Translations under genes and position numbers: made by a program
Source of the DNA: Bdellovibrionales bacterium RIFCSPHIGHO2_01_FULL_40_29
Lineage (GTDB): Bacteria > Bdellovibrionota > Bdellovibrionia > Bdellovibrionales > Bdellovibrionaceae
Direction of reading: 5' to 3'
DNA length: 64,000 bases
Assembly (NCBI GenBank): GCA_001771815.1
Contig: MEPU01000013.1
Span: forward strand, 248,001-312,000
Part shown: positions 27,418-31,242 of the stretch, one piece after another
How positions within the stretch are numbered: position 1 is the first letter of the stretch
Layout of the letters: the number at the start of each line of letters is the position of its first letter
The notes under the pieces: generated by a model
Told to the model about the DNA's origin: nothing
The model's database searches: none
Seen by the model: the letters and a program-made list of their open reading frames with translations, nothing else

Positions 27418-28845
27418 ATGGTGAGTTTAGTTTATACGGCCATAATTAGTGATTTGCATTTGACTGATGCTGAGCCTCCGCGCCACAGAAGGGCGTCGCG
27501 CCATCCACTATGGAAAAAATTTAAAACCAAAGAATTTTTTATTGATTCTGCTCTTGTCCAATTTATAGAGCATATTCAAGAAAAAGCTCTGGGCAACAAG
27601 GTTGAACTGATTCTTAATGGGGATATTTTTGATTTTGATAGTGTGATGAGTCTACCAGACGATCCCATTTATGATGTGAACTGGTTTGAAACACGTCGAG
27701 GCCTTTTTCCAAAGGAAGAAAAATCACTTTTCAAAATGCAGGTGATTATTGAAGAGCACATTACTGTGTTTGAAGCTCTGCGAGACTTTATCCGCAAGGG
27801 TCATGAGGTCGTTATTATTCCGGGCAATCACGATGTTGAATTATTGTTTCCGAAGGTTCAAAAGCTGATCGTGGATTCGTTAGATCTTACAGATGACGAG
27901 CGGTTAAAAATTCGTTTTGTAGATTGGTTCTATATCAGCGGAAAAGACACTTTAATTGAACACGGCCACCAACAAGATCCTTATTGCATGTGTGAAGATC
28001 CAATTAATCCATTTTTGCTTGATTACAATGAATTATCAATTCGTCTGCCATTCGGAAATGTGGCCTGTCGCTACATGATGAATGGGCTTGGATTATTTAA
28101 TCCCCATGTTGAAAAAAATTATATAATGAGTTTGTCAGATTATTTAAAATTTTTCTTTAAGTATTTATTGCGCGCGCAGCCGCTCATAGTTTGGACATGG
28201 CTTTGGGGAGCCGTAGCAACTCTTTGGCATGTCACGGCTGAGCGTTTTTCCGAGCCCTATAAATTTTCTTCAAGTATCGAAAAAAGAATTAATGATACAG
28301 CAGAAAGATCAAGAACAAACGCGAGTACCGTTCGCGAATTGAAGGAGCTTTTTGTTCGGCCAGCGACCCAAAGTCCCTTGTTGATTGCCAAAGAGCTGTG
28401 GTTGGATCGATTGTTTTTAATTTTGTTTATTTTTGTGAGTGCTTATTTTTTTGTTTCAACTTTAAAAGCGTACTTTGCAATTTCGTTATTTTGGATTTTT
28501 GTTCCACTTTTATTATTGGTTCCATTTTTTTTATTCTATGCTCGCTCTGTAACATCTCTTGTTTCACAGTATAAAGAACCAGATGAGCAGCTTTTAGCAA
28601 AACAGTCTGTTATTGCGGGCGTGAGGCGCATTGTGTATGGACACACTCACTTGGCAACTCATGCGCATTTTGGTGGGGTGGAGCATTTGAATTCGGGCAC
28701 ATGGTCTCCGGCATTTACAAATGTCGAGTGCACCGAGACAACCGAGAGAAATACTTATGTTTGGATTGCTCCAACAACTGAGGAGCCTTCGGTTCGCAGA
28801 GCCGAGCTTGTTTCATTCACGAGTAAGCGCCCTGATGAAAAATAA
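27418..28845 (+). CDS. Membrane-associated metallophosphoesterase
   Basis: The 475-residue protein has the calcineurin-like metal motifs DLH (Asp12, His14), LNGDIFDF near 67, GNHDVEL near 138 and YGHTH near 406. The stretch between GNHD and GHTH is unusually long and contains hydrophobic segments at about 245-275 and 331-378, so the phosphoesterase domain is interrupted by a membrane-embedded insert. The substrate is unknown; related enzymes act on lipid A precursors (LpxH-type), nucleotides or phospholipids. The predicted N-terminal catalytic part is in the cytoplasm. It lies next to the histone gene, after 86 bases. Confidence 0.85.
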   Translation: MVSLVYTAIISDLHLTDAEPPRHRRASRHPLWKKFKTKEFFIDSALVQFIEHIQEKALGNKVELILNGDIFDFDSVMSLPDDPIYDVNWFETRRGLFPKEEKSLFKMQVIIEEHITVFEALRDFIRKGHEVVIIPGNHDVELLFPKVQKLIVDSLDLTDDERLKIRFVDWFYISGKDTLIEHGHQQDPYCMCEDPINPFLLDYNELSIRLPFGNVACRYMMNGLGLFNPHVEKNYIMSLSDYLKFFFKYLLRAQPLIVWTWLWGAVATLWHVTAERFSEPYKFSSSIEKRINDTAERSRTNASTVRELKELFVRPATQSPLLIAKELWLDRLFLILFIFVSAYFFVSTLKAYFAISLFWIFVPLLLLVPFFLFYARSVTSLVSQYKEPDEQLLAKQSVIAGVRRIVYGHTHLATHAHFGGVEHLNSGTWSPAFTNVECTETTERNTYVWIAPTTEEPSVRRAELVSFTSKRPDEK

Positions 28846-28931
28846 CTAACTGCATCATTAAGGTTGGTTGTGTTTGTCATCCGCCAGCTCTCATGTAACG
28901 CTTTTTAAGTCATAATAACATTGGAGGCATC

Positions 28932-29126
28932 ATGGCTGACGTTTTAGTGGTAACGAGCAAAGTTAAAAAATTCATCAAAGAAAAAAGCGAAATGAACACA
29001 TCAGCAGAAACTGTAGACGTGTTATCAAAAGCAATTGAGCGCTTATGCCAAAAAGGTATTGAGTCTGCTAAAGCTGATGGTCGTAAGACAGTTATGGCTC
29101 GTGATATTATCATCGACCATATCTAA
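28932..29126 (+). CDS. Bacterial histone-fold protein (Bd0055 type)
   Basis: The 64-residue protein is a single histone fold: helix 1 (TSKVKKFIKEK), loop, long helix 2 (SAETVDVLSKAIERLCQKGIESAKADG), loop with the conserved RKTVMARD, and a short helix 3. The RKTVMARDI segment matches the R-T pair and Asp of archaeal and bacterial histones. Bdellovibrio bacteriovorus Bd0055 is the established relative; it is an abundant chromatin protein reported to bind DNA in an unusual end-on way. The ATG follows GGAGG at seven-base spacing, and a strong terminator follows, so it is an independent single-gene unit. Neighbours are a metallophosphoesterase and ligA. Confidence 0.93.
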   Translation: MADVLVVTSKVKKFIKEKSEMNTSAETVDVLSKAIERLCQKGIESAKADGRKTVMARDIIIDHI

Positions 29127-29148: not shown

Positions 29149-29179
29149 AAAAAACCCAATAAAAACTATTGGGTTTTTT
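29149..29179 (+). terminator. Intrinsic terminator after the histone gene
   Basis: AAAAAACCCAATA (29149-29161) pairs with TATTGGGTTTTTT (29167-29179) around a five-base loop. The stem is rich in A and T runs at both ends, so it should work for both the histone gene and the convergent ligA. Confidence 0.9.

Positions 29180-29202: not shown

Positions 29203-31242
<2,040 letters not shown>

Follow-up and report, generated by a model that had tools for sequence, protein, structure and literature searches.

The closest described relative of the protein analysed here is the histone Bd0055 (HBb) of Bdellovibrio bacteriovorus, for which crystal structures have been published both free and bound to DNA (PDB 8FVX, 8FW7, 8CMP, 9EZZ, 9F0E). 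Bd0055 is an abundant and probably essential nucleoid protein: its abundance, its location in the nucleoid, failed deletions and complexes with DNA have been reported, and it forms a dimer in solution that binds DNA non-specifically and does not wrap it (PMC10627809, PMC11317129). The architecture of the complexes is disputed, with straight DNA being coated in one study (PMC10627809) and DNA being bent in the other (PMC11317129). The published DNA contacts are T8, S9, K10, K12, T23, S24, A25, K52, T53 and R57, the clamp is formed by D49, R51 and D58, and the named dimer residues are V11, L31, I35, L38 and I59 (PMC11317129). When A48, S45 and I61 are swapped for the archaeal residues, the FRET signal becomes archaeal-like (PMC10627809). 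Homologues of Bd0055 were found in 67% of Bdellovibrionota genomes in a published survey (PMC10627809). Two other types of bacterial histone are relevant for the comparison: HLp of Leptospira, a face-to-face tetrameric histone whose tetramers wrap about 60 bp (PMC12701072), and the ZZ histones (PMC11390915).

The window, i.e., the whole stretch of 64,000 nucleotides that was analysed, carries an ATG...TAA frame at positions 28932 to 29126 of the + strand, which encodes the 64-residue protein MADVLVVTSKVKKFIKEKSEMNTSAETVDVLSKAIERLCQKGIESAKADGRKTVMARDIIIDHI. An earlier note on this DNA had described it as a histone fold of the Bd0055 type with the motif RKTVMARD, and both the exact frame and the motif (residues 51–58) are as described. 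The profile search that the note had named as able to refute it gave a match to Pfam PF00808, the archaeal-histone/NF-Y family (E 3.4e-5, 24.5 bits, above the curated cut-off of 21.4 bits). The NCBIfam archaeal histone model also matched (E 1.7e-6), with a score under the cut-off of the model, as expected for a histone of the bacterial type. Among solved structures, the closest are the B. bacteriovorus chains 8fvx/8cmp (E ~4e-31), aligned without gaps over all 64 residues, which confirms the assignment to the Bd0055 type.

Bd0055 and the window histone are of the same length and identical at 54 of 64 residues (84%). The ten differences (residues 3, 14, 19, 20, 28, 37, 40, 43, 60 and 64) spare the published contacts with DNA, the clamp and the dimer residues, so that the two proteins are identical at every one of these positions. 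To place this in the diversity of the family, conservation was scored over 75 distinct orthologue sequences. T8, S9, K10, K12, T23, K52, T53 and R57 are invariant among them, as are D49, R51, D58, L31, L38 and I59, and K13, which is also present in the window histone. Variation at the published positions is restricted to S24 (99%), A25 (68%, with A, S or G), I35, which alternates with V, and V11, which alternates with I. The conservation of the lysines and of the RxT pair that the note had asked about is thus borne out by this alignment. As the comparison sequence that the note had seen in it, the protein adds little: dozens of distinct orthologues are already public, and the window histone adds no change at a contact residue.

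Judged by its sequence, the window protein is a straightforward orthologue of Bd0055/HBb in the "bacterial dimer" class of alpha3 histones. It clusters with HBb, it has the RKTxxxD motif and the RD clamp (R51-D58, plus D49), it has the N-terminal S9-K10 motif and the alpha1 lysines (T8, S9, K10, K12, K13), and its ungapped alignment to the crystallised protein implies the same shortened alpha2, truncated alpha3 and lack of any extra domain. It shares with the archaeal HMf/HTk histones the histone fold, the RKT motif and the RD clamp, but its sequence similarity to them is weak, its alpha2 is shorter, its alpha3 is a single turn and the tetramer-forming residues are missing. In particular, the histidine of the HMf-type tetramer interface is replaced by A48, as in Bd0055 (the mapping of this interface onto position 48 is from PMC10627809). 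Since A48, S45 and I61 are all retained, the window histone is predicted to be a dimer and not a tetramer. This distinguishes it from the tetrameric HLp, with which it shares the alpha3 histone family and the short alpha2.

A close orthologue (E below 1e-23) was recovered from 58 of the 60 genomes that represent the order here; the remaining two are assemblies that are 90% and 72% complete. The genome carrying the window (2.93 Mb in 13 contigs, 99.99% complete) has a single match to the Bd0055-type histone and four genes of the HU/IHF family. Many relatives (L115-L126) also encode a protein of 158-195 amino acids in which an N-terminal cysteine-rich domain (WRKCSSCKK...YYECSVSTC...FCS..CWE.HLPGAKHR) precedes a C-terminal histone fold, as published for ZZ histones (PMC11390915). 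The fold of these Bd3044-type proteins of Bdellovibrionales resembles that of the bacterial dimers and is 47-61% identical to the window protein, which differs from them in having neither the N-terminal C4/C2H2 zinc-finger domain nor the linker. Among the ZZ histones L115-L126 the linker varies more than the cysteine/histidine domain, and a Pfam scan of one member gave no match above the threshold of E 0.001, the histone fold included. The ZZ profile matched the window's own genome only at the present gene, and only by its histone part (profile positions 105-164); ZZ histones were also not found in G002, G004 and G009, from the same genus. The genome thus appears to be without a second histone of the Bd3044 type, and the present gene looks like its only histone. 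Such a genome could suit genetics free of a second-histone background. The leader and start of the histone occur at two places in one relative, G005 (G005:C105:6052-6240 and G005:C33:8-248). One of these places holds only a fragment (residues 1-23), which may have been duplicated in the assembly or may be a second copy that is broken.

The likeness to B. bacteriovorus extends to the genes around the histone. Upstream, on the same strand and at a distance of 86 nt, lies a gene for a calcineurin-like phosphoesterase with membrane-like segments (27418..28845, PF00149), and downstream lies the convergent ligA, encoding the NAD-dependent DNA ligase (29203..31233 on the - strand, PF01653 and others). 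The earlier note had presented this as a second gene context for the Bd0055 family. The arrangement is instead widespread, and identical in strain kdesi of B. bacteriovorus (L052), which encodes exactly the Bd0055 sequence that was crystallised: the phosphoesterase is upstream on the same strand, and ligA is convergent at 263 nt past the histone start, followed by gatC, gatA and gatB. Counted over loci with enough flanking sequence, the phosphoesterase is directly upstream of the histone at 46 of 74. A convergent ligA lies within 5 kb at 69 of 72 loci, and at 48 of these 72 it is within 400 nt; 30 of 66 loci have the two neighbours immediately adjacent. Together with the residue comparison, this confirms the DNA-contact residues and the neighbourhood of HBb-type histones as conserved across the order. 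A usual Bdellovibrionales histone locus, neighbours included, was also present in a record titled as a Streptomyces griseus MAG (L061, CALQIT020000112.1), whose name is probably wrong.

The window histone is therefore ordinary, both as the orthologue of a protein already characterised and in its conserved gene context, and what is new to look at is only its unusually conserved control region. The 60 bases 5' of the gene (28872..28931, + strand) contain TTGTCA (at 28874), a spacer, (C/T)ATGyAAnnnTTTT and then the ribosome site, and most likely hold a promoter with an operator. Compared with the nearest relative, the leader is identical at 59 of 60 positions by global alignment (60 of 60 in the BLAST alignment), against a mean identity of 70% over the 32.7 kb aligned with the contig of the relative. 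Only six stretches of this alignment contain 60-base windows with at least 56 matches, and the only other one with 60 of 60 lies over tRNA-Ser, which puts the conservation of the leader, for these two genomes, on a par with that of a tRNA. More distant relatives, B. bacteriovorus kdesi included, have in common the core TTGTCA, 12-13 nt and (C/T)ATGyAAnnnTTTT. The remainder of the leader diverges from that of Bd0055; the whole leader matches B. bacteriovorus at 39 of 60 positions, which is inside the range of shuffled sequences, so that only the core is shared at this distance.

The leader does not resemble a structured RNA, as its fold is no better than those of shuffles (z +1.17), and an Rfam search of the window returned nothing at the histone locus. 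A sigma-70 promoter scan gave no + strand site in the leader, and the attack-phase FliA consensus TTAAG-N16-CCGATA (PMC3627812) was not seen in it by eye. Matches to the leader element elsewhere in the genome were no more frequent than for the reversed control (4 versus 6). The Bdellovibrio transcriptome study did not map growth-phase promoters or starts (PMC3627812). We tentatively propose, as a guess less probable than not, that the leader is an unrecognised type of Bdellovibrionales growth-phase promoter/operator under a constraint close to that of a tRNA, and that the histone's own regulator may bind to it. Alternatively, the two lineages may recently have recombined at the leader, which would also explain the identity. 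As a conserved control region, the leader is a candidate for studying the control of growth-phase histone expression.

The gene is framed by its own expression signals, as the earlier note had suggested: a ribosome site ATTGGAGG (28920-28927) precedes the ATG, and a bidirectional intrinsic terminator, AAAAAACCCAATA-AAAAC-TATTGGGTTTTTT (29149..29179), separates the histone from ligA. Its 13-bp inverted repeat is perfect and flanked on both sides by A and T runs. It folds much better than shuffles on the + strand (-14 kcal/mol, z -4.8) and moderately better on the - strand (-13.5 kcal/mol, z -3.2), which fits a use shared with the convergent ligA. A scanner for terminator patterns did not list the element at 29149-29179, probably because the stem continues into the T tract. 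The further claim of a one-gene unit is plausible, given the 86-nt gap, the highly conserved leader and the absence of the upstream gene in many relatives. The histone might instead be co-transcribed with the phosphoesterase and belong to the pathway of the latter, since the two genes are on the same strand, are separated by a gap without a terminator and so often stay adjacent. We regard this as unlikely. In many loci the phosphoesterase is missing or inverted and the histone is still there, which argues for a promoter of its own, and no coding DNA nearby, at the phosphoesterase end, is as conserved as the leader just 5' of the histone. We thus infer that the histone has its own promoter; the phosphoesterase is a conserved neighbour outside the histone mechanism.

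The best explanation overall, which we hold with high confidence, is that the gene encodes the orthologue of Bd0055/HBb, a DNA-binding dimer and probable major nucleoid protein, presumably expressed from its own promoter and with a terminator shared with ligA. By analogy with the published data on Bd0055, the dimeric state, the bending or coating of DNA, the abundance and the near-essentiality would extend to the window histone. The histone-fold dimer would arise from two 64-residue chains that pair through the central alpha2 helix of each. Loop l1 (T23, S24, A25) and K12 of one chain would grip phosphates across the DNA minor groove, loop l2 (K52, T53) and R57 of the other chain would provide the opposite half of this grip, and T8-S9-K10, where alpha1 starts, would form a second contact face. 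Separate dimers would then coat or bend the DNA with no sequence preference and without wrapping it, as expected from the absence of the residues that allow archaeal tetramers; the window sequence does not choose between straight coating and bending. The protein would probably be a major nucleoid protein alongside the four HU/IHF-type proteins, with its expression driven by the conserved promoter and ended at the element shared with ligA. That the fold has diverged towards another job, as a sequence-specific regulator or in a role unrelated to DNA, is very improbable: histone folds do act elsewhere as subunits of transcription factors, and PF00808 includes CBF/NF-Y, but all the DNA-backbone contacts and the clamp are those of Bd0055, whose binding was reported to be genome-wide and non-specific (PMC11317129).

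The histone reading frame is under purifying selection, with dN/dS of 0.02-0.07 where measurable and synonymous sites near saturation (pS 0.71 against the nearest relative). A 67-aa frame does exist on the - strand (28910-29113), and the notion that it is the real feature, or that the + frame arose by chance, can be dismissed with near certainty, as both the strong homology and the dN/dS favour the + frame.
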